64,000 nt of DNA from Candidatus Woesearchaeota archaeon (GCA_016187465.1 JACPJQ010000003.1:344139-408138), one strand, 5' to 3'. Positions 15,777 through 45,312 are shown, numbered from the stretch's first letter. Program-made: numbers and translations. The notes: generated by a model from the sequence alone, not told the origin.

Positions 15777-16550
15777 TTACCCTTCCGCCAATTTCTTGAA
15801 ATAATTTCTCACCAGTTCCTGCTGCTCCTGCGGAATGTTTTCCTCAAAAGCCGCTGTTTCCCTGACAGTCAGGTCTTTGGGAAAGACGCTCTCGAATTTT
15901 TGCTGCTCAGCCTCTCCTTCTTCCCTGACATTAACCTTGAAGTCAACGGGCTTTATCCTGATGTTGAGCTCCTTGTCGCCGAGCTTTGCGACGTCCTTGT
16001 TGCCGAAAATGTCGTCGCTTGTGTTCAGTTTTACTGCCACAAAATTTCCGACTCCCTTGGGCCCTTCGAATATGTCCGGAACTTTCTGCTTTGCAAACTC
16101 CACAATTTTCAAGTTTAAAGTTGTTGCGAATATTATCATAAATGAGAGCAGCATGACTGCAAATATCTTATAGGACAATGTCCTTGGGTTTATAAACATT
16201 GACAAGCCGACATTCTTCATTTCCGTTGTGACTTCGTATTCAAGCTCTTCCACAATAGGGCTTTCCATGCCGACATTGTCAGCCGCCGTCCTGAGTTTCT
16301 CCCTTAGAGGAGCGTATTTGCTTTCTACCATAAGGGGCTTTGATGACCTAAATCCCATGTAAGAATAGAATCCCAGGTAAACAAATGCAGGTATCAGCGC
16401 AAACAGCGGATTGGAATCAAAGATTGACAATATCAAATAGAATGCCAAGAATACAAGAGTTGTGTTTACTATGTTCTCAAATAATGTCAGCTGTGTCAAA
16501 GTCCTGTTGATTTCCCTGACAACATTTGAAAATTGTTTCATTTTTAGCAA
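15777..16550 (-). CDS. Hypothetical membrane protein of the MoxR/VWA cluster
   Basis: 257 aa, two hydrophobic segments near the N-terminus plus a third at about 125-150; overlaps the next gene and lies in the same direction as the cluster. Confidence 0.65.
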   Translation of the reverse strand: MLKMKQFSNVVREINRTLTQLTLFENIVNTTLVFLAFYLILSIFDSNPLFALIPAFVYLGFYSYMGFRSSKPLMVESKYAPLREKLRTAADNVGMESPIVEELEYEVTTEMKNVGLSMFINPRTLSYKIFAVMLLSFMIIFATTLNLKIVEFAKQKVPDIFEGPKGVGNFVAVKLNTSDDIFGNKDVAKLGDKELNIRIKPVDFKVNVREEGEAEQQKFESVFPKDLTVRETAAFEENIPQEQQELVRNYFKKLAEG

Positions 16551-32926: not shown

Positions 32927-32984
32927 GAACTATCCAGATTTTGCTAGGAATAAATATTTTTCTATTTATGCTGAATCATGATAT

Positions 32985-33106
32985 CCCCATCCCCGGATTC
33001 GAACCAGGATCCTTTCGGGATCAGCTGAGTGTTTTTCATCCATAGCAAGAATTGCTTTGTCAAACACTTTCTACAGCCGAACGCTCCGCCGTTGAGCTAG
33101 ATGGGG
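32985..33106 (-). tRNA. tRNA-Tyr (GTA) with anticodon-loop intron
   Basis: CCCCATC/GATGGGG acceptor (C1-G72, as in archaeal tRNA-Tyr), D stem GCTC/GAGC, anticodon stem TTCGG...CCGAA with CTGTAG before an intron of about 50 nt, T arm CCTGG-TTCGAAT-CCGGG. Confidence 0.9.
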
Positions 33107-33160
33107 GATAATAAAGAAATTTGTTTTTGGTTTATAAATTTATTTAATGTTTTTGATTTA

Positions 33161-33253
33161 TATAGCAAATGACACAATTATTTATACATAAATAAGTCAT
33201 TTGCTTATTACGAACGGACAACTATTGTATAACTATTTTTGTCCGTGAGTATA
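33161..33253 (+). repeat. 93-bp direct repeat, copy 1
   Basis: TATAGCAAATGACACAATTATTTATACATAAATAAGTCATTTGC...TTTTTGTCCGTGAGTATA; one mismatch versus 36516-36608. Confidence 0.95.
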
Positions 33254-33304
33254 GTTTGATATTTTATCAATTAATATTGAATGGGTTTGTAATTAAAAAA
33301 TACC

Positions 33305-34750
33305 TTAACCGCCCATGCTTACCCTGTTGGAATTGCTTATAACAACCCTATCCCCTATCTTGCATCTTGCGTTTGCGGCAGGAAGGTTGAATTCTCCCAA
33401 TATTGGAAGCCTTGACTTCATTTTGTATGAAAGGACTCTCTCATCACCGGGCTCCAATGCCTCTATTGTCCATTTTATCAGCATGCCTTTTTTCGGGTGC
33501 TGCAGCACAGAATGGGGCTGCACAGAGCCTATTGAAATCTCTTTTTCGACATGGGCAATGTGTGAAAGATTGTCAAGCACTTCTATGTTGGTTATCTGGT
33601 TTGCGCTCCTGTTCTTTACCCTTACGACAATTTTTGCTTCTGAAATGCCGCCTTCGGTAGTTCCTACATTTGCTATGCTTTTCCTCACAATGATTGGGCT
33701 TCTAAAGACGAAATAAAGGACAAGGGCAATGATTACAAGCACGGCAGCAACAACAATCGGCCGATAATTTTCAGTTGTGTAGGCTTCCATTTTTCTTTCG
33801 TTGTCAAGCTCAACCTGCCACACTAGGTACATCTTGTCATTCTCTTTTACTGTATCTGCTTTGGGATTTGCAGACAAGAACAGGTTTTTAAGCTGGCTTG
33901 TCTCAACCTTGATGGTTCCCTTATAATTGGGATTATTTGATATTACTTTTGTGCCTTTCCTTATTTTCAAAAAGGATTCATCTTTTGGAAGCTCCTCTTG
34001 TGTTGAGTATTCTGTTATCTCGTACCCAGTTACAATGGGGTTTACTATCAGCCTCTCGTCTTTAAATACCGCGACCACAATTTGGTCCAGCTGCGGAGGA
34101 GTCATATCATCAAGCTTTTTCTTTATCTCGACTGATTTTTCTTCCCTTGGCCCGAGAGGGATATAGATTTGGTCCTTGAAAAGATTGCTTTCTATCTTGA
34201 TTGTTATGTTAGGGTAGTTTAACACGTTTTGGTTGTTGAGGTCAATTTTTATCGTGAATTCTTTCCTTGGATCAATTTTCTCCGGAAAAATGAAAGTGCT
34301 TGTCAAAACAGTAGGGATATAGCCGCCAATCAACGGCTCTGTTGACTTGATGCCTATGGTTATAGGAACCTTTTGCTCTTGGCCCGTAGACTCAAGAATT
34401 ATTCCCACAGCAAGCGTGTAAGTGTCAACTGAGGTGATGTACAGCGGATGAACAAAAATTCTTATCGAGGCAGAGCTTTGGGCTGGCACATTCAATGTTA
34501 TGGGGTTTTGCAAAGGCTCCGTGTACATGTCCCAAAAGGGATATCCTGCCTTTTTTATTATGTATTCCTGATCAGTATCAAGGTTGTTTTCAATGGTAAT
34601 ATCAAATTCAGCAGTTTCATCTACCACTATCTTGTCCTTTATCGGAGTAACCTTCGCATCAAAAGACGCAGCATGGGCAAGACTAATCAATAGAAGGAAC
34701 ACGCCTAAACTGATTATTAAGAATTTGCTTATTTTCGCCATTAATTGCAC
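33305..34750 (-). CDS. Secreted/membrane protein with Ig-like (NEW3/CARDB-like) domains
   Basis: 481 aa, signal peptide LIISLGVFLLLISLAHAA, beta-rich ectodomain, TM VVAAVLVIIALVLYFVF, then a further beta-rich domain. Confidence 0.65.
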   Translation of the reverse strand: MQLMAKISKFLIISLGVFLLLISLAHAASFDAKVTPIKDKIVVDETAEFDITIENNLDTDQEYIIKKAGYPFWDMYTEPLQNPITLNVPAQSSASIRIFVHPLYITSVDTYTLAVGIILESTGQEQKVPITIGIKSTEPLIGGYIPTVLTSTFIFPEKIDPRKEFTIKIDLNNQNVLNYPNITIKIESNLFKDQIYIPLGPREEKSVEIKKKLDDMTPPQLDQIVVAVFKDERLIVNPIVTGYEITEYSTQEELPKDESFLKIRKGTKVISNNPNYKGTIKVETSQLKNLFLSANPKADTVKENDKMYLVWQVELDNERKMEAYTTENYRPIVVAAVLVIIALVLYFVFRSPIIVRKSIANVGTTEGGISEAKIVVRVKNRSANQITNIEVLDNLSHIAHVEKEISIGSVQPHSVLQHPKKGMLIKWTIEALEPGDERVLSYKMKSRLPILGEFNLPAANARCKIGDRVVISNSNRVSMGG

Positions 34751-34852
34751 CTTTTTTCGCAGACTTTTAGCTGGATTACTTATATATAAATCTTTCCTAT
34801 CAGAAAACGAGCATAGAAACCTTTATATATTATTGAAGTCAGAAAAATTTTC

Positions 34853-35416
34853 ATGAATCCTAATGATTTTATCCACAATGCAGATGCCCCGACTCCCATT
34901 GTTTACATCCAATACAAGGGTATTTTGGACATGCAGGACATTTACGAAACTATTGCGGATTTCTTCAGGCGGAAAAAATTCAAACTTTATGAAAAGCAGC
35001 AGAGGCTCAGGAGGCCAAGCGCTTTTGGTGCGGAGCTTATGTATTCTTTTGAGGCAAGAAGAAAAATAGAGGATTATTATGAATGGGTTGTCAATATAAA
35101 CATTGAGACATTTGACTTTAAGGAAATAGATGTTGTCCTAAAAGACGGAACCAAGAAGAAGATGATTAAGGGCAGGGTTTGGGTGCAGCTTTACGGCACC
35201 TGCGTAACAGATTACGAAAAGATATGGGAGAAGAGCGCCTTTTTAGCACATCTAAAGAGCTTTTACAATAAGTATGTAATAAGGAAGAGGTTTGAAGGAG
35301 TCTGGTGGGACGAGCTTTACTACAAGATAGTTTTAAGGCTGCATGCTCTTCTAAAAGAAAGGCTGAAGATGATATCCGAAGGCTATGAGCACAGGCATTT
35401 TTCCGGCGTGCACTAA
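34853..35416 (+). CDS. Uncharacterized paralog family member A
   Basis: 187 aa; pattern IQYKGILDMQDIYETIADFFRRKKFKLYEKQ...YEWVVNINIETFD. Confidence 0.7.
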   Translation: MNPNDFIHNADAPTPIVYIQYKGILDMQDIYETIADFFRRKKFKLYEKQQRLRRPSAFGAELMYSFEARRKIEDYYEWVVNINIETFDFKEIDVVLKDGTKKKMIKGRVWVQLYGTCVTDYEKIWEKSAFLAHLKSFYNKYVIRKRFEGVWWDELYYKIVLRLHALLKERLKMISEGYEHRHFSGVH

Positions 35417-35428
35417 AAAAAGAGGTTA

Positions 35429-35962
35429 TTGTTCAGAATGGGCCATTTAAAAATAGTTGTAGACCATGAAAAGATAGACTACAATGGACCTGTAAATGTG
35501 AGCGATTTGCTCAGGATGATTGAGAATTTTCTTTTTGAGCGCGGCTTTGACAAGAGGCAGGATAAGGATTTCGAGCAGCACACCAGTCATGGAAAATTTA
35601 TAGAATGGCAGATAGCTCCATGGAAGAAGGTAACTGACTACATAAGGTACATAGTGAAAGTCAGGGTTCTTGGCTACGACATACTAAAGACAGATGTTGT
35701 GAGCAACGGCAAAAAATCCAGGATTGACACCGCGAGAATCATAATTGTAATTGACGGGTTCATGGAGTATGATTATGACAACTACTGGGATGACAAGCCG
35801 ATTTTATTTTTTTTGAGGACTATTTACGACTATTTTATATTCAAGGCATATACTGAAAGGTTTGAGCATAGGCTTGTCCATGACATAAATCATCTCCATC
35901 ATAATATTGAAAAATTTTTGAACCTATACGGACATTACACAGTTATTTCAAAGCCGGCTTAG
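35429..35962 (+). CDS. Uncharacterized paralog family member B
   Basis: 177 aa; HEKIDYNGPVNVSDLLRMIENFLFERGFDKRQDKDFEQHTSHGKFIEWQIAPWKKVTDYIRYIVKVRVLGYD. Confidence 0.7.
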   Translation: MFRMGHLKIVVDHEKIDYNGPVNVSDLLRMIENFLFERGFDKRQDKDFEQHTSHGKFIEWQIAPWKKVTDYIRYIVKVRVLGYDILKTDVVSNGKKSRIDTARIIIVIDGFMEYDYDNYWDDKPILFFLRTIYDYFIFKAYTERFEHRLVHDINHLHHNIEKFLNLYGHYTVISKPA

Positions 35963-36483
35963 TGGTCTTTATGGCAGAAAAGAAACAGGTGCTTTACGAT
36001 TTAAGGACAACGTATAACGGCCCTTTCATAGTTGAAGATTTCTATGCCGAGGTTGACGGCTGGATAAAGGAAAACGGCTTTGAAAAAGAGCCTAAAAAGA
36101 AGAGCGAGCATGTGACAAAAAACGGCAAGAAGATAGAGTGGGTTATTGAAGCCCACAGGCATCTGGACGAGCTGCATCACGGCATCATTGTTTTAAGGGC
36201 GCTGCTTGACAACATCAAGGAAGTCAGCATAAAAAAGGACGGCAAAAAAATAAGGATAAATAACGGCGATGTGCTGATAAACATTGACGGCTGGATCAAT
36301 TCCCACATACACGGCAGCTTTTACCAGGTCAAGCCGGTTTATTATTTTGTAAGGACTTTGATTGATAAGTTTGTGTACAATTTCTGGTCAGATAAGTATG
36401 ACGGAACTGTTGCATCTGAGTGCCATTCATTGTTCAAAAGGATAAGGGCTTTTTTCAAAGTGCAGAAATTCAAGTATGAATGA
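35962..36483 (+). CDS. Uncharacterized paralog family member C
   Basis: 173 aa; RTTYNGPFIVEDFYAEVDGWIKENGFEKEPKKKSEHVTKNGKKIEWVIEAHRHLDELHHGIIVLRAL; same layout as member B. Confidence 0.7.
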   Translation: MVFMAEKKQVLYDLRTTYNGPFIVEDFYAEVDGWIKENGFEKEPKKKSEHVTKNGKKIEWVIEAHRHLDELHHGIIVLRALLDNIKEVSIKKDGKKIRINNGDVLINIDGWINSHIHGSFYQVKPVYYFVRTLIDKFVYNFWSDKYDGTVASECHSLFKRIRAFFKVQKFKYE

Positions 36484-36515
36484 ATGAAAGATAACATTAA
36501 ACTTCCAATTATAAT

Positions 36516-36608
36516 TATAGCAAATGACACAATTATTTATACATAAATAAGTCATTTGCTTATTACGAACGGACAACTATTGTATAATTATTTTTGTCCG
36601 TGAGTATA
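36516..36608 (+). repeat. 93-bp direct repeat, copy 2
   Basis: Identical to 33161-33253 except AATTATTTTT versus AACTATTTTT. Confidence 0.95.
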
Positions 36609-36705
36609 AATACCCAATAATCAAAAAATTTCAACAAAAAACTAAAAAAAGACAATCATAACATTTAAATATAATTCTCTTAACCAAAAGACTGCCAGGC
36701 AATTT

Positions 36706-36870
36706 GCGGGGGTAATTCCTAAGCATTTGCTTCGGAATCCTTAGAGCGAAGCCTGGTCAAACGCGCAGGACTCAGAAGTGCGAAACTTAAGACCAGCCTG
36801 AGAAGGCTCACGCTGTAGATGGGATATCCTGTCCCTTAGTGGGTCCGAGGGTTCAAATCCCTTCCCCCGC
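36706..36870 (+). tRNA. tRNA-Leu (CAG) with two introns (D-arm boundary and anticodon loop)
   Basis: Acceptor GCGGGGG/CCCCCGC; D arm GCG-AAGCCTGGTCAAA-CGC; anticodon stem CAGGA/TCCTG with CTCAGA before the intron; T arm GAGGG-TTCAAAT-CCCTT. Removing about 31 nt (approx. 36715-36745) and 49 nt (36777-36825) leaves 85 nt. Confidence 0.88.
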
Positions 36871-36904
36871 ATTATTTACATTTGATTTATTTTCTTTTTT
36901 GAAT

Positions 36905-36975
36905 TTTAATCCGTTCGCTACGCTCACAATATATTGTGCTCGGCAAAAATTGTCTGCCATTAATTTTTGCCTCAC
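36905..36975. repeat. Structured intergenic element, copy 2 (hairpin homologous to copy 1)
   Basis: GGCAAAAATT(36942-36951)-GTCTGCCATT-AATTTTTGCC(36962-36971); upstream palindrome CACAATATATTGTG (36925-36938). Confidence 0.65.
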
Positions 36976-37130
36976 CTATTATTGCAATAAACAATTTAAA
37001 GCGATTCACTTTCATCTTGCTAACTTATCAAAGCCGCTCTCGTATTTTTTATTTAATTTTATTCGTTATTGTATTTTATATTGATTTTTTCCACAAACTT
37101 TTAAATACAAACATTCTTTCTAAAAGATAT

Positions 37131-37255
37131 GCCTCTGTAGCATAGCAGCTATTGCGTTGCCTTGGTATAATTTAGAATCAACAAATAGGCAAAGGTCGTG
37201 GGTGCAAATTGTGGAAAGCGAGCAACGCTTTCGCATTGCATGTCCCATCAGAGGC
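37131..37255 (+). tRNA. tRNA-Thr (GGT) with introns in the anticodon loop and the T-loop
   Basis: Acceptor GCCTCTG/CAGAGGC; anticodon stem TTGCC/GGCAA with TTGGTA before the intron; T stem GTGGG/CCCAT interrupted by about 34 nt after TGCAAA. Excising 37168-37186 and 37209-37242 leaves 72 nt. Confidence 0.82.
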
Positions 37256-37311
37256 TTATTTATATATAGCTTTTAAGCAAAGTTTTTATAGGATTTGAAG
37301 ATTTTAGATAT

Positions 37312-37569
37312 ATGACACCTAAACAATTTTGGAAGCTATTAAAAGACAACAACAAACAGATTAATACTATCATTCAACTGATAATTTTAATAATCGCAAT
37401 TCTAGCCTACCTTAAGGTCCAAGCCATTAATATAGATTTAGATCAGGTTAAAGGTAGATTAGCTGATTTCGACAAAGTTATAGCAGGTAACATATCGTTG
37501 AAATCTGGAAACGAAACTATTACTGCAATGTCTACTAATGGAAGTCATATTTGTATGCCTAGTTGCTGA
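37312..37569 (+). CDS. Small single-TM protein
   Basis: 85 aa with TM TIIQLIILIIAILAYLKVQAINI. Confidence 0.5.
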   Translation: MTPKQFWKLLKDNNKQINTIIQLIILIIAILAYLKVQAINIDLDQVKGRLADFDKVIAGNISLKSGNETITAMSTNGSHICMPSC

Positions 37570-37639
37570 TTTAATCCCTTCGTAAGTTTGATACTTTGAT
37601 ACTAATACCCCAGAGGCTTTATTACTTAAAGAATAAAGA

Positions 37640-38029
37640 TCATTCACTCTTCTTAACCTTTTCAACTTTCTTCCACAAGAGATAAGACGAAAACATCACT
37701 ACAAAGAATGGTATTACCGATAGTGCTTTTAAGATTCCGTCTCCGGCAAAATATATAGAAGCGCCTGCTCCGATAAAGTCAATTGTAAAGCCAGCATAAG
37801 CCCATTCCTTAATGGTTCGGAATTTCCACTGCAATATTGCAATTGCGCCTAGAATTTTTGCAACTCCGATGATTGTATTGACATAAATAGGATATCCAAG
37901 ATGCTTCATGATTTCCGCTGCTTGTTTGGTCTGCATTACTTCAGAAACTCCCGAAAACAGCATAAATAATGAGAACAGAATGGTCACTGCCCAATAAATG
38001 ACTTTAATGGTTTTTTGCTTCATTTTCAA
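37640..38029 (-). CDS. DoxX-like membrane protein
   Basis: YWAVTILFSLFMLFSGVSEVMQTKQAAEIMKHLGYPIYVNTIIGVAKILGAIAIL...KEWAYAGFTIDFIGA. Confidence 0.85.
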   Translation of the reverse strand: MKMKQKTIKVIYWAVTILFSLFMLFSGVSEVMQTKQAAEIMKHLGYPIYVNTIIGVAKILGAIAILQWKFRTIKEWAYAGFTIDFIGAGASIYFAGDGILKALSVIPFFVVMFSSYLLWKKVEKVKKSE

Positions 38030-38080
38030 CAGATTGATAAGAGTTGTGTTTATTTCTATTGATTGTATAGGATTTCATTT

Positions 38081-38761
38081 TTAAGAATGCGTCACATCGC
38101 TGTCCTGCACGCTGTTGACTGAAATCTTGGTGAACCTGTAGATGTTGCCGTTAGACTCAGCCTGCAATGGAATGCCGTAAAAAGTGTCAACCCACAAAAA
38201 GCCCTTGTTTGTCTCAATCTTCCATGTGCTTCTGCTGTCAATGACTTCCTCGCCGACTTTCTTGGCGCTAGTTAAGCCGCTAGTCCAGTCAAAAGGCGTT
38301 GATATGTAAGCATCTTCATAATTCAAATCCTGCTTTTTGCCTTTGTATACACAAGATGCATGCACACAATAAGACTGGGATGTTTGAGCTGTTTTGTCTA
38401 TGAAAATAGAATCATATGACTCCGGATTATCTAAGGATTTTATTGCCAATGAAGGCTTGTACATTATCTTAGCGCCTTTGACATAAAAGGCATAAAAATT
38501 GTCGCCCGTCTCATGCCCTTTGTACAAATAGTAGATATTCTGGACTCTTGTTTTGGATTTTGCCAGCAAATCGCTGACATCGGCTGTGATTTCTGACATT
38601 GGCTGCGGCTGCTCAACTGGGGGAGCCGGGACAGGGACTGGAGGAGGCTGCTTATCCTCAGCTTTAGGCGGGGTGACCGCTGGCTGCTGCGGAACAGTAC
38701 ACGATGCGATGTAGAACAATGCTACTACAAGAGATAAAAAGGTGATATACTTATTTTTCAT
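38081..38761 (-). CDS. Lipoprotein, function unknown
   Basis: Lipobox LFYIASCTVPQQ, Pro-rich linker, 226 aa. Confidence 0.7.
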   Translation of the reverse strand: MKNKYITFLSLVVALFYIASCTVPQQPAVTPPKAEDKQPPPVPVPAPPVEQPQPMSEITADVSDLLAKSKTRVQNIYYLYKGHETGDNFYAFYVKGAKIMYKPSLAIKSLDNPESYDSIFIDKTAQTSQSYCVHASCVYKGKKQDLNYEDAYISTPFDWTSGLTSAKKVGEEVIDSRSTWKIETNKGFLWVDTFYGIPLQAESNGNIYRFTKISVNSVQDSDVTHS

Positions 38762-38867
38762 GTGCCATCGCCGAAAAGAGTTATTGCTCAGATTTAAAAA
38801 TTTTTCTAAGCATTCACTTACCCCTATTAGAAAACTTTTTATATAACCAAACTAACAAAAACCAGAG

Positions 38868-39353
38868 ATGGCAAGGGTTAAGAGCATAATGTTGGCGAAC
38901 CCGCCCACATTAAAAAAAGAGGCAAGCATTGCGGAAGCGGCAAAACTGCTGGCGCAAACGCAGCACGGATGTATTGTCATAACTGAGAATAGCAATCCGA
39001 TTGGCATTGTTACAGAGCTGGATTTTGTCAGGAATGTTGTTTCTATGAATAAGAATTTAAAAGAGAAGGTAAACAAGATAATGAGTTCTCCGGTTACATT
39101 TATGGACCCGGACATGAAGCTGGACGAAGCCTTGAAAATCATTGACACAAAGAAGTTCAGGAAGTATCCCGTTATGGACAATGGGCAATTGGTCGGCGTT
39201 GTCACAAAAAGGGACATTGTCAATGCTATAAGCGACAACTTGAGATTCCATAGAAACGTGCAGAACGCAGTGCTCGTGCTTTTTGTTTTGTTTGAGTTTT
39301 TTGTTTTTGTGCTGTACAAATATTTATACCAATATCTGTCTAAAGGAGTTTGA
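38868..39353 (+). CDS. CBS-pair protein with C-terminal TM segment (1)
   Basis: Two CBS motifs (VTELDFVRNVV; VVTKRDIVNAI) followed by VLVLFVLFEFFVFVLYKYLY. Confidence 0.88.
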   Translation: MARVKSIMLANPPTLKKEASIAEAAKLLAQTQHGCIVITENSNPIGIVTELDFVRNVVSMNKNLKEKVNKIMSSPVTFMDPDMKLDEALKIIDTKKFRKYPVMDNGQLVGVVTKRDIVNAISDNLRFHRNVQNAVLVLFVLFEFFVFVLYKYLYQYLSKGV

Positions 39354-39354
39354 A

Positions 39355-39822
39355 ATGATAAAAATAGGAAGCATGATGACAAAGGATGTAATTACAATAC
39401 AGGCAGGTTCAGGCATACTTGAAGCTGCAAGGCTTATTGCATCCAAATCCGTCAGCAGCTTGGTGGTTATTGACGGCAGCAAGCCTATCGCTATTGTGAG
39501 CGAAAATGATATTATAAGAGGCGTTGTCTCAAAAAAATCCAAAGTCAGGGAAATTATGAGCACGGAATTTAATATCGTATTGCCATCAACAAAATTTTCT
39601 GAGATTATCAAAACGCTGAAAGAAAAAGGTATCAAGAGGTTTCCGGTTGTTGAAAATGAAAAATTGGTTGGGTTGGTAACTGAAACAGATGTGATAGAGG
39701 CTACAAGGGATTTTACCAGATTCCACCAGATAGTGCAGGAAATCATACTGGCCATTTTCGGACTTGCGACAGCATTCTTTTTGTTTTACTTCAGCCCTCT
39801 AAGAGCATCAATTTTTGGGTGA
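39355..39822 (+). CDS. CBS-pair protein with C-terminal TM segment (2)
   Basis: ATG 39355 (MIKIGSMMTKDVITIQAGSGILEAARLIASKSVSSLVVID...); CBS pair then IILAIFGLATAFFLFYFS. The track ORF starts earlier at 39283. Confidence 0.88.
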   Translation: MIKIGSMMTKDVITIQAGSGILEAARLIASKSVSSLVVIDGSKPIAIVSENDIIRGVVSKKSKVREIMSTEFNIVLPSTKFSEIIKTLKEKGIKRFPVVENEKLVGLVTETDVIEATRDFTRFHQIVQEIILAIFGLATAFFLFYFSPLRASIFG

Positions 39823-39871
39823 CTGCTGATTAGAAAAATATAAATACCATGCACAAATATTGAATGCCCGA

Positions 39872-40009
39872 GGGCCTGTGGTCTAGCGGCTATGACATCG
39901 CCTCGACAACAACTGCAAAATCAGTTGACACTTTGTGGGGCATAAAGCGCCACTCGAAGCGGCGAAGGTCACCAGTTCAAATTTAACTGATGAAAATCTG
40001 GTCAGGCCC
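39872..40009 (+). tRNA. tRNA-Val (GAC) with two or three introns
   Basis: Acceptor GGGCCTG/CAGGCCC; D arm GTC-TAGCGGCTAT-GAC; anticodon stem TCGCC/GGCGA; T stem ACCAG/CTGGT with TTCAAA + 15 nt + T. Removing 66 nt leaves 72 nt. Confidence 0.85.
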
Positions 40010-40080
40010 ATCCTATATTTAATATAAAAAGCGGTGAGAGCATTAAATCGAAGCTTTATCCTAGGATATTTTTTTCCGCA

Positions 40081-41124
40081 TTGTTTCTGGCAATTCTCCT
40101 TCTTGGATTTTTCATAACAAAGCCTTTCCTGCCGGCGCTTTTTACAGGCGCAATAATAGCCTATTTGTCTTATCCCTTGTACAAAAAACTCCTGGCGCAT
40201 ATCAAAAATAAGAATTTTGCGTCATTCATAATTGCATTCTTCATAGTCCTGATTTTTGCTATACCTTTTATTGTGGTGCTCGGCCTTGTCTCAAAAGAAG
40301 CTTATCTGACTTACACTACATTAAATCAACAGGACCTCGGAACAAATTTTCTCAGGGTGGTGTGCAAAGACGAAAGCTGGATGTCGTGCAAAGCCGTAAA
40401 GTCGCTTGTCGATTTCCTGCCGAGAAAAGACCTGGATTATTATTTGCAGGTCACAATCGGTAAAATAACAATATTTATCATAGAGAATGTTTCAAGATTC
40501 CTTTCCTCAATTCCATTGATACTTCTGAATTTTTTTGTGATGATATTTGTAGTTTATTATTTACTTAAAGACGGAGAAATTATGGCTGAAAGGCTAAAAA
40601 AGATACTGCCCCTCAAGGAATCGCACAAGCAGCATGTTTTGCAGACGTTTCACAACACCACATACGCTGTATTTTACGGCAATATACTGACAGCAGTCCT
40701 GCAGGGCATTTTAGGAGTTATAGGGTTCTTGGCTCTTGGTATTCAATCCGCCATCCTCTGGGGCTTTGTGATGATGGTATTTGCACTGATTCCGTATTTT
40801 GGCACTGCTATAATATGGCTGCCGGCTGCCTTAAACCTAATTTTTATAGGGTATCTGCAGAATGATAATTCATCAACCATCAGGGGAGTCATCCTTATCG
40901 TCTACGGTATCTTTGTTGTGAGCAGCATAGACAATTTCCTGAAGCCGAAGATGATAAGCGCAAAAGCAAAAGTTCATCCCATTCTGGCATTGATTGGCGT
41001 GCTGGGCGGCCTAAGCCTTTTCGGGTTTCTGGGCCTTATTTTGGGTCCGGTCATGCTTGCATTGCTCATGACATTTGTTGACATATATGAAGACGAAAAA
41101 ACTGAAATTGAAAAATATTTTTGA
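40081..41124 (+). CDS. AI-2E family transporter-like membrane protein
   Basis: 347 aa polytopic; ITKPFLPALFTGAIIAYLSYPLYKKL, GILGVIGFLALGIQSAILWGFVMMVFALIPYFGTAIIWLPAAL, PKMISAKAKVHPILALIGVLGGLSLFGFLGLILGPV. Confidence 0.9.
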   Translation: MFLAILLLGFFITKPFLPALFTGAIIAYLSYPLYKKLLAHIKNKNFASFIIAFFIVLIFAIPFIVVLGLVSKEAYLTYTTLNQQDLGTNFLRVVCKDESWMSCKAVKSLVDFLPRKDLDYYLQVTIGKITIFIIENVSRFLSSIPLILLNFFVMIFVVYYLLKDGEIMAERLKKILPLKESHKQHVLQTFHNTTYAVFYGNILTAVLQGILGVIGFLALGIQSAILWGFVMMVFALIPYFGTAIIWLPAALNLIFIGYLQNDNSSTIRGVILIVYGIFVVSSIDNFLKPKMISAKAKVHPILALIGVLGGLSLFGFLGLILGPVMLALLMTFVDIYEDEKTEIEKYF

Positions 41125-42613
41125 CAAGATGAAACTCAAAGTCAAGGACATGGACATCTCCAGCGGCGGCCCATTAGTTGCAGTCATAAACCGCAAAGAC
41201 GCATCGATGCTGGACTTGCACGTGATGGACAGGATAAAGATAAAAAAAGGCAGCAAGTTCGAAACTGTTGTTGTGGATATAGCGCAGAGCAGCAAAGTGG
41301 TGCCTAAGGGCACAATTGGCGTTTTTGAGGAGGTCCTTAATTCTTTGAAATTAAAAAATAACGATAAAGTCGAAATTACAATTGCGCGCAAGCCATTATC
41401 CATCGACTACATAAAGAAAAAATTAGACGGGCAAAGGCTGAACAAGAATGAGATTGACCAGATAGTCTGGGACATTGTCCATAATAAGCTGAGCGCAGTG
41501 GAGCTGACTTATTTTGTTGCCGCATGCTACACTAATGTCATGTCAATAGAAGAGACAATTCTGCTTACAAAGGCAATGGTAAAGCACGGCAGTGTATTAA
41601 GTTTAAACAAGTATCCTGTCATTGACAAGCACTCTATTGGCGGGATTCCCGGCAACAGGACAACAATGGTGGTTGTGCCAATAATAGCAGCTGCAGGCTA
41701 TATTATGCCAAAGACCAGCTCACGCTCTATAACCAGCCCTGCGGGAACAGCAGACACTATGGAAGTTCTTGCAAACGTAATTTTTCCCATAAGCAAAATG
41801 AAAGAGATTGTGCTCAAGGCAAACGGCTGCATTGTATGGGGCGGCTCGCTGAATCTCGCGCCTGCAGATGACAAGATAATTGCTGTTGAAAGGCCTCTGG
41901 AGATAGACGCTGAAAGCCAGCTTCTTGCCTCGATAATGGCCAAGAAACATTCTGTTTCAAGCACGCACATTCTGATTGATGTTCCGATGGGCAAATACGC
42001 AAAAGTAAAGAATAGAGTTGAGGCGCTAAAGCTTAAGAGTGAGTTTGAAAAAATAGGCAGAAGATTAAGGAAGCATATCAAGGTTATTATAACCGACGGC
42101 AGGCAGCCGATTGGAAACGGCATTGGGCCGTGCCTTGAAGCAAGAGATGTTTTATGGCTGCTCAAAAGGGATCCAAGAAGGCCTCTTGACCTTGAGAAGA
42201 AATGCCTGATGATGTGCGCCAATATTTTCAGCATGGTGGGCATTAAAAACGGCTACAAAAAAGCATTGGGGATTTTGGATTCAGGAAAAGCATACCAAAA
42301 GATGGTTGAGATTATAAAAGCCCAAAATGGAAAGGAGATTGCAGCAGAAGACATCAGGATTGGCAGATTTTCTTATGACGTTGTGTCTGCAAAAGGCGGC
42401 GAAGTAGTTGAAATAGACAACAAGTTTATTTCCAGGATTGCAAGGATTGCAGGCGCTCCGCACGACAAAGGCTCCGGATTGTACATTTACAAGCACATAG
42501 GCGACAGAGTAAAAAGAGGCGAGAAATTGTTTACTATTTACTCGGAAAGCAAGCATGAATTTGAATACGCGAAAGATGTCGCAAAGAGTGAGAAGGTGTT
42601 TGTAGTGAGATAA
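41075..42613 (+). CDS. AMP phosphorylase / thymidine phosphorylase family (true start probably about 41129)
   Basis: KHSIGGIPGNRTTMVVVPIIAAAGYIMPKTSSRSITSPAGTADTMEVLANV; N-terminal extension as in archaeal AMP phosphorylase. Confidence 0.92.
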   Translation: MLTYMKTKKLKLKNIFDKMKLKVKDMDISSGGPLVAVINRKDASMLDLHVMDRIKIKKGSKFETVVVDIAQSSKVVPKGTIGVFEEVLNSLKLKNNDKVEITIARKPLSIDYIKKKLDGQRLNKNEIDQIVWDIVHNKLSAVELTYFVAACYTNVMSIEETILLTKAMVKHGSVLSLNKYPVIDKHSIGGIPGNRTTMVVVPIIAAAGYIMPKTSSRSITSPAGTADTMEVLANVIFPISKMKEIVLKANGCIVWGGSLNLAPADDKIIAVERPLEIDAESQLLASIMAKKHSVSSTHILIDVPMGKYAKVKNRVEALKLKSEFEKIGRRLRKHIKVIITDGRQPIGNGIGPCLEARDVLWLLKRDPRRPLDLEKKCLMMCANIFSMVGIKNGYKKALGILDSGKAYQKMVEIIKAQNGKEIAAEDIRIGRFSYDVVSAKGGEVVEIDNKFISRIARIAGAPHDKGSGLYIYKHIGDRVKRGEKLFTIYSESKHEFEYAKDVAKSEKVFVVR

Positions 42614-42617
42614 AAAC

Positions 42618-42726
42618 GCCGACGCCCGGACTTCCACATATGTTTTGAACCGGGATACCCTTGCGGGAACCAGCTTTCTAGTCCTTAGCTCAAGGCTAGC
42701 GCAATGCCGGATTATGCGACGTCGGC
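42618..42726 (-). tRNA. tRNA-Ser (TGA) with introns in the anticodon loop and the T-loop
   Basis: Acceptor GCCGACG/CGTCGGC; D arm GCA-TAATCCGGCAT-TGC; CTAGC/GCTGG anticodon stem with CTTGAG + 13-nt intron; long variable arm TTCCCGCAAGGGTA; T stem CCCGG/CCGGG with TTCAAA + 13 nt + T. Exons 83 nt. Confidence 0.85.
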
Positions 42727-44973: not shown

Positions 44974-45312
44974 ATGATAAAATATCAAGAATTATTCTTA
45001 CTATCGGTTGATTTGCCACTAAACTATAATAGAGGAGGTTGGGTAGCAGAGTTTGCAAGACCAAATCCTAAATACGAACCAGTGAAATATAATAGTAAAC
45101 CATTTATAATCGAGAGAGTTTCTGTTGATGAAATTTATCGAGATTCAAGGGAAATGATGGATATAATTAGAGAAGCTAAGATAACTGGAAAGGGATTACC
45201 CGGAGATGTCATAAAAAATTTTGATAGCATTACTAATATAGTAAGACAAATACCCGGTAAAGTTCAAAAGTATTCTGAAAGAATTTTGCCAAGATTAAAT
45301 ATTTCATTTTAA
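44974..45312 (+). CDS. Hypothetical protein (112 aa)
   Basis: Stand-alone ORF, AT-rich codon usage. Confidence 0.45.
   Translation: MIKYQELFLLSVDLPLNYNRGGWVAEFARPNPKYEPVKYNSKPFIIERVSVDEIYRDSREMMDIIREAKITGKGLPGDVIKNFDSITNIVRQIPGKVQKYSERILPRLNISF

Follow-up and report, generated by a model that had tools for sequence, protein, structure and literature searches.

How archaeal tRNA introns arise is a long-standing question, and the locus described here raises it in a concrete form: are five densely interrupted tRNA loci, most of them invisible to standard tools, real genes, what would remove their introns, and where do these introns come from? The window, a stretch of 64,000 nucleotides, lies on C3, a contig of an archaeal genome that measures 1.62 Mb and is 93% complete. 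The EndA of this genome has its closest named relatives in Candidatus Woesearchaeota MAGs, mostly from groundwater (up to 88% identity). This agrees with the DPANN-type archaeon supposed in the original prediction, which was made from the sequence alone.

Neither ARAGORN with default settings nor Rfam at the gathering score returned a tRNA in the whole window, and the Tyr gene was the only one to surface with the ARAGORN intron option or a more permissive scan. An ARAGORN tRNA-Asp call at 45293 was rejected as AU-rich noise, as the structured cloverleaf search did not recover it. This intron-aware search, performed with our own script on 914 tiles of both strands and permitting introns in arms and linkers, identified five tRNAs in the window and no others, with scores ranging from 45.0 to 51.0, against 28.4 for the best other tile. 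The five interrupted genes of the original prediction were thus recovered, with the following features (mature lengths include base 73).

32984..33106, minus strand: tRNA-Tyr(GTA), mature length 72 nt, one intron
33020..33070, minus strand: Tyr intron, 51 nt, at 37/38, with 3 of 4 central helix pairs
36706..36871, plus strand: tRNA-Leu(CAG), mature length 86 nt, two introns
36714..36744, plus strand: Leu intron 1, 31 nt, at 8/9, with hairpin ATTCC/GGAAT and central helix GGGG/CCTT
36777..36825, plus strand: Leu intron 2, 49 nt, at 37/38, with central helix CTCA/TGGG, including CTTAAG
37131..37256, plus strand: tRNA-Thr(GGT), mature length 73 nt, G at position 55, two introns
37168..37186, plus strand: Thr intron 1, 19 nt, at 37/38, orthologues of 10-48 nt or none
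37209..37242, plus strand: Thr intron 2, 34 nt, at 59/60, with central helix TGCA/TGCA
39872..40010, plus strand: tRNA-Val(GAC), mature length 73 nt, C at position 33, two introns
39909..39959, plus strand: Val intron 1, 51 nt, at 37/38, with central helix TCGA/TCGA
39982..39996, plus strand: Val intron 2, 15 nt, at 59/60, with central helix TTCA/TGAA, without inner helix
42617..42726, minus strand: tRNA-Ser(TGA), mature length 84 nt, two introns
42676..42688, minus strand: Ser intron 1, 13 nt, at 37/38, with 3 of 4 central helix pairs
42631..42643, minus strand: Ser intron 2, 13 nt, at 59/60, with central helix TTCA/TGGA, including one G-U pair

The nine introns measure 13-51 nt; five of them lie at 37/38, three at 59/60 and one at 8/9, and their removal restored a cloverleaf with the right anticodon in all five genes. 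Hand folding had suggested about ten introns, half of them at non-canonical positions; the presence of multiple introns held, with an exact count of nine, four of which are non-canonical (8/9 in Leu; 59/60 in Thr, Val and Ser). The counts of one for Tyr and two for Leu, Thr and Ser were correct, as was the lower of the two values given for Val (2 or 3), a third Val intron being unneeded for a good tRNA. The predicted mature cloverleaves were also sound, their lengths (72 nt for Thr and Val, 83 for Ser, 85 for Leu) becoming 73, 73, 84 and 86 nt once base 73 is included.

Several features of these genes deserve mention in their own right. In tRNA-Thr of the window (37131-37256), as in this family and in the distant relative G058, G55 replaces a near-universal U, and C33 replaces U in tRNA-Val-GAC (39872-40010) and in relatives within the clade. 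The 37/38 intron of Leu-CAG (36777-36825) contains CTTAAG, which is the Leu-TAA loop sequence, followed by Leu-TAA intron remnants, and looks, from its sequence, as if an old anticodon had become intronic. Alternative splicing to Leu-TAA through this intronic CTTAAG was considered and rejected, no bulge-helix-bulge (BHB) motif being found for the second path. Moreover, the segments 33164-33255 and 36519-36610 are nearly identical copies of a repeat, about 90 nt long and forming two hairpins, that was absent from the loci compared in relatives.

Loci that standard tools overlook, with insertions differing in length among species, might be decayed tRNA pseudogenes carrying random insertions. The exons, however, are conserved and agree with intron-free relatives, whose tRNAs matched the spliced exons of Leu (93%, G054), Val (88%, G007) and Ser-TGA (84%, G040); with Thr, which is intron-free in G026 and G051, these relatives fix most exons of the window. 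The insertions, moreover, lie at exact BHB sites with compensatory pairing. Uninterrupted copies elsewhere in the genome, which the original prediction had named as the observation that would turn these loci into pseudogenes, were looked for, and no intact copy of the five isoacceptors was found in this 93%-complete MAG. Since the loci are conserved across the genus, both decay and contamination were discarded, and we give the pseudogene reading practically no weight. Taken together, the five loci are very probably functional tRNA genes, belonging to a Woesearchaeota archaeon, and their transcripts would be spliced in the cell.

The window is not an isolated case. Among the 32 tRNA genes located in this genome, 30 were interrupted, by one to three introns each and at least 43 in total (with ambiguous boundaries at C5:1714, C5:7497, C5:175685, C2:29464 and Gln-TTG), Val-CAC and Glu-CTC being the only uninterrupted genes. 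As this list, drawn up from searches and selected stretches of the genome, is incomplete and biased toward the easier genes, the true interrupted share is unlikely to be much lower, and the density is indeed as striking for a DPANN archaeon as had been anticipated. Further introns were located at 53/54 and at several D-loop sites; Gly-TCC, for example, carries three introns (82 nt in the D-loop, 11 nt at 37/38 and 16 nt at 59/60). Per genome, a standard tRNA model recovered 6-22 tRNAs among members of this genus and family and 9-42 in the other families of the order, and the distant relative G058 has 44 tRNAs, mostly without an intron or with one near 37/38. Because so few tRNAs are recovered in this family, its MAGs may be wrongly described as tRNA-poor. 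Intron content also varied between close relatives. At the Val locus, the 59/60 intron (15 nt in the window) was either absent from sister species or measured 70, 98 (with the element described below in reverse orientation) or about 340 nt; 37/38 introns of Thr ranged from 10 to 48 nt and were absent in two relatives; and 8/9 introns of 30-32 nt were found at the site of Leu intron 1 in many members of the genus. Introns in this family are gained and lost rapidly.

The break that Thr, Val and Ser had been said to share in the T-loop, at about 59/60, was found in each of the three as one intron at exactly 59/60. We attribute the repeated use of this site to the T-arm presenting the same substrate as the anticodon arm: in both, a 5-bp stem carries a 7-nt loop and the cut follows the sixth nucleotide of that loop. 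In the 59/60 BHB, intron bases -6 to -3 pair with positions 54-57 (loop bases 1-4, that is, exon bases -6 to -3), so that the 5-bp stem of the T-arm would act as the outer helix and the loop-intron pairing as the central one. Among 21 introns at 59/60 from nine genomes, all four pairs were present in 15 and three of four in the remaining 6, whereas no intron (0 of 21) had four pairs in the frames one base to either side; at 37/38, 52 of 53 introns had at least three of the four pairs. As our search rewards BHB pairing, it was rerun with this scoring off: 14 introns were still placed at 59/60, none of which had fewer than three pairs (10 had four), and 23 of 24 introns at 37/38 had at least three. 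The 59/60 pairs covary (TTCA-TGAA, TTCG-CGAA and, in Thr with its G55, TGCA-TGCA).

The six 59/60 introns with one mismatch form a single family, found in Leu and Ser and ending in TGCAAG, an ending that fits Thr perfectly. Thr intron 2 of the window belongs to this family, which is also present in Leu and Ser of sister species and which, judging by this fit, appears to have moved from Thr to the two other tRNAs.

Judged by a central helix of at least three of four pairs between 3-nt bulges (21 of 21 at 59/60, 52 of 53 at 37/38), these introns have the BHB architecture, and many, including those at 59/60, retain the standard BHB spacing while lying at a site unusual for a tRNA. The inner helix of the strict form (hBHBh') was seen by inspection in examples such as Thr 59/60 and Leu 8/9. 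Introns of 10-16 nt lack it, there being no room for an inner helix, and are of the relaxed type (hBH).

The original prediction had taken this density of introns to imply a broad-specificity enzyme, and had proposed a search for the endonuclease genes and their subunit type. This search yielded one EndA gene, encoding a one-unit protein of 200 aa closest to the alpha subunit of M. jannaschii. No second homologue, beta-like or other, was detected in this genome with a profile built from 24 relatives (E up to 1). With the family profile at the same threshold, no second full EndA was found in 25 genomes, except in G013 and for a contig-end fragment in G002, and Pfam revealed none in 59 genomes. 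The catalytic residues Y136, H146 and K177 were invariant in 24 sequences. The predicted model (mean pLDDT 78.6) had its best fold match in 1a79, the M. jannaschii alpha subunit (TM 0.91, 39% identity), and lacked the crenarchaeal alpha loop, a 9-12-residue insert in 2zyz_B and 3p1z_B. A single gene, a length within about 170-200 aa and the Tyr-His-Lys triad place this EndA with the alpha4 type, while the three-unit fusion and ARMAN-specific loop of epsilon2 enzymes were absent from the 200-aa, one-unit protein. From the single gene and the closest structure, we infer a putative homotetramer; an unrecognised partner, or one encoded outside the 93%-complete assembly, is conceivable.

As this single alpha4-like EndA has none of the loops held to broaden specificity, a known broad-specificity enzyme was not supported. 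Alpha4-type enzymes are held to cut full BHB motifs only (PMC4033280, PMC12397907), relaxed introns being said to be beyond them (PMC4033280), and intron-rich, non-canonical tRNA genes have been associated with endonucleases that possess additional subunits or loops (PMC4033280, PMC12397907). Because several introns (13-16 nt, without inner helix) are of the relaxed type, a relaxed activity of the alpha-only EndA is probably needed: either this enzyme has a broader range than has been assumed, or it has a partner that was missed. Cleavage of relaxed motifs by an alpha-only enzyme would, if true, be new, and the combination of a plain enzyme with 30 of 32 located tRNA genes interrupted offers a direct test of the model of intron-endonuclease coevolution.

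A tRNA-splicing ligase, RtcB, is also encoded in the genome, and its gene is itself interrupted. The rtcB gene (G000:C4:157792-159170, plus strand) contains two insertions of 33 and 32 nt bearing stops, whose removal restores MPDGH-WGYGF and GFDI-NCGMR; by inspection, the second forms a full BHB with central TGAC/GTCA. Taking the genus and family together, BHB-type insertions occupy four alternative positions in rtcB, and none was present in 6 of the 14 genomes compared. As the insertions bear stops, the ligase seems to require splicing for its own expression, which, if true, may feed back on the splicing pathway. In rtcB of two other genomes (G019:C18:40122-42944 and G025:C23:14066-16891), an in-frame insert of about 1.4-1.5 kb was observed, which is probably an intein.

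As to the origin of the introns, the long ones have blocks in common with sequences dispersed in the genomes. Among these is a structured element, AACC-hairpin-GCTTGACCAAAA, whose inner hairpin varies in sequence with its pairing kept. The pattern AACCTTTT-N-AAAAGCTTGAYNAAAA was matched exactly about 75 times, in 21 of the 59 genomes, and a control pattern had no match. Among 70 distinct copies, 28 lay inside resolved tRNA introns (24 forward and 4 reverse), located in the D-loop or at 37/38, 53/54 or 59/60 of no fewer than eight isoacceptors; a few others were in tRNA introns too long for parsing. Two copies were located in a 16S rRNA insertion after GGATTAGATAC, the first 40 nt of which (G000:C3:113816-113855) recur without a difference in the tRNA-Pro-GGG intron of that genome. 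The remaining copies were intergenic, many of them reversed and directly 5' of a start codon. Rfam gave no match for the element itself, the sole strong hit being the 16S gene around one copy.

The conserved unpaired AACC and GCTTGACCAAAA around a hairpin that varies yet still pairs, together with the reversed position of many non-tRNA copies just before start codons, could denote a regulatory RNA motif that is not mobile and resides in introns and 5' leaders by chance. We consider this unlikely, although not negligibly so: within tRNA introns the element occurs in both orientations and at differing tRNA positions, and the orthologous counterpart of one intergenic site, located in the window at 16541 (minus strand), lacks the element. 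Furthermore, direct repeats of the tRNA 3' end were found when the flanks of copies beside Arg and Gln tRNAs were examined. At six loci (Arg-TCT and Gln-TTG), the tRNA has a complete 3' end, after which come the element and then the last 14 nt of the tRNA (bases 60-73) once more; in G004, the unit of element and 3'-end repeat occurs twice in tandem. Copies dispersed in both orientations, with sites occupied in some genomes and empty in others, are what is expected of a mobile element.

Two further arrangements were noted. A palindromic repeat, ATGCGAG...CTCGCTCAC, is dispersed in G000, G003, G006 and G008 (e.g., G000:C3:114398 and C3:291974) and also occurs within tRNA introns. In G018:C19 (around 301-333), the element lies between two similar gene starts, MSREDETISC and MTREDETIFALRT, possibly owing to duplication at insertion. 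An IS200/IS605 origin was considered for the long Val insert of G009, whose hairpins were suggestive, yet reading this larger insert revealed no transposase ORF inside it, and no integrase either.

From these arrangements, we infer that mobile elements seed some introns. The element followed by a repeated 3' end at Arg and Gln tRNAs looks like an insertion at the tRNA 3' end, which would proceed at 59/60 as follows: the element inserts at the 3' end, bases 60-73 are duplicated, and the near copy decays or is lost, leaving the insert as a 59/60 intron. Small dispersed elements would supply part of the intron gain, their ends forming a BHB at tolerated sites; both their mobility and the order of these steps are putative. 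It could also be that the element entered pre-existing mini-introns without creating new ones, which fits some cases, as several element introns end in the same GTGAAAG tail as mini-introns do.

The introns might otherwise have been passed among tRNA genes by intron transposition, via RNA or gene conversion, as in Thermoproteales, and be removed by a heteromeric broad-specificity endonuclease whose second subunit was missed, the intronic repeats being passengers. Homologous 59/60 introns in the non-orthologous Thr, Leu and Ser do resemble the transposition described for that order in work cited in PMC4033280; N. equitans, also a small archaeon, has alpha and beta subunits (PMC4033280); and the assembly is only 93% complete. 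We nevertheless judge this scenario rather improbable. The surveys of 25 and 59 genomes described above revealed no second full EndA beyond the two exceptions given, the EndA present has no crenarchaeal loop, and copies that are reversed, intergenic or flanked by tRNA 3'-end repeats are not expected from transfer at the RNA level. A bolder reading goes further: in Woesearchaeota, a small structured mobile element would repeatedly make tRNA and rRNA introns by completing a BHB, those at 59/60 through 3'-end integration, with removal by a relaxed, alpha-only EndA and a ligase that itself needs splicing. In this complete form it is advanced tentatively, with somewhat less than an even chance of being right. 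As the genus offers occupied and empty sites, both orientations of the element and likely intermediates, it would allow a stepwise study of how archaeal tRNA introns originate.

No report of such tRNA introns in Woesearchaeota was found in the open-licence papers searched. The Thermoproteales, to which the original prediction had pointed, are the right comparison (PMC4033280): according to the account given there of earlier work (Fujishima 2010, Sugahara 2008), their tRNA genes have multiple introns and undergo intron transposition. As far as that account describes them, the likeness comprises BHB introns that lie at 37/38 as well as at non-canonical positions and number up to three in a single tRNA, and similar introns across tRNAs. 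The genome described here differs, within the limits of the same account, in belonging to a DPANN groundwater lineage, in having 30 of 32 located tRNA genes interrupted, in its one alpha-type EndA versus their alpha-beta enzyme, and in intron blocks that also occur outside RNA genes and in reverse. ARMAN-2, with its epsilon2 endonuclease (PMC12397907), is likewise a small archaeon of the DPANN group whose tRNA genes have non-canonical introns and relaxed motifs, but the EndA of about 200 aa found here is not a three-unit fusion and has no ARMAN-type loop. BHB introns in protein genes are known from crenarchaeal cbf5, with gain and loss between relatives as in rtcB (PMC2738675); unlike cbf5, rtcB encodes the ligase of the same splicing pathway and is interrupted at four alternative positions. 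A mobile-element origin of tRNA disruption has been proposed once, for Caldiarchaeum (PMC4033280, PMC3293823). The model for tRNA-Thr of Caldiarchaeum subterraneum (PMC3293823) shares with ours a mobile element at a tRNA gene, a duplicated tRNA fragment and a route to intron gain; it involves a 1.8-kb element, one tRNA and a duplicated 5' fragment, whereas here elements of about 100 nt are found at several tRNAs, with the 3' end duplicated from position 60. Overall, multi-intron tRNAs are already known, and the Woesearchaeota case could be more than a variant of them, provided that both the alpha-only enzyme and the route through the element hold.
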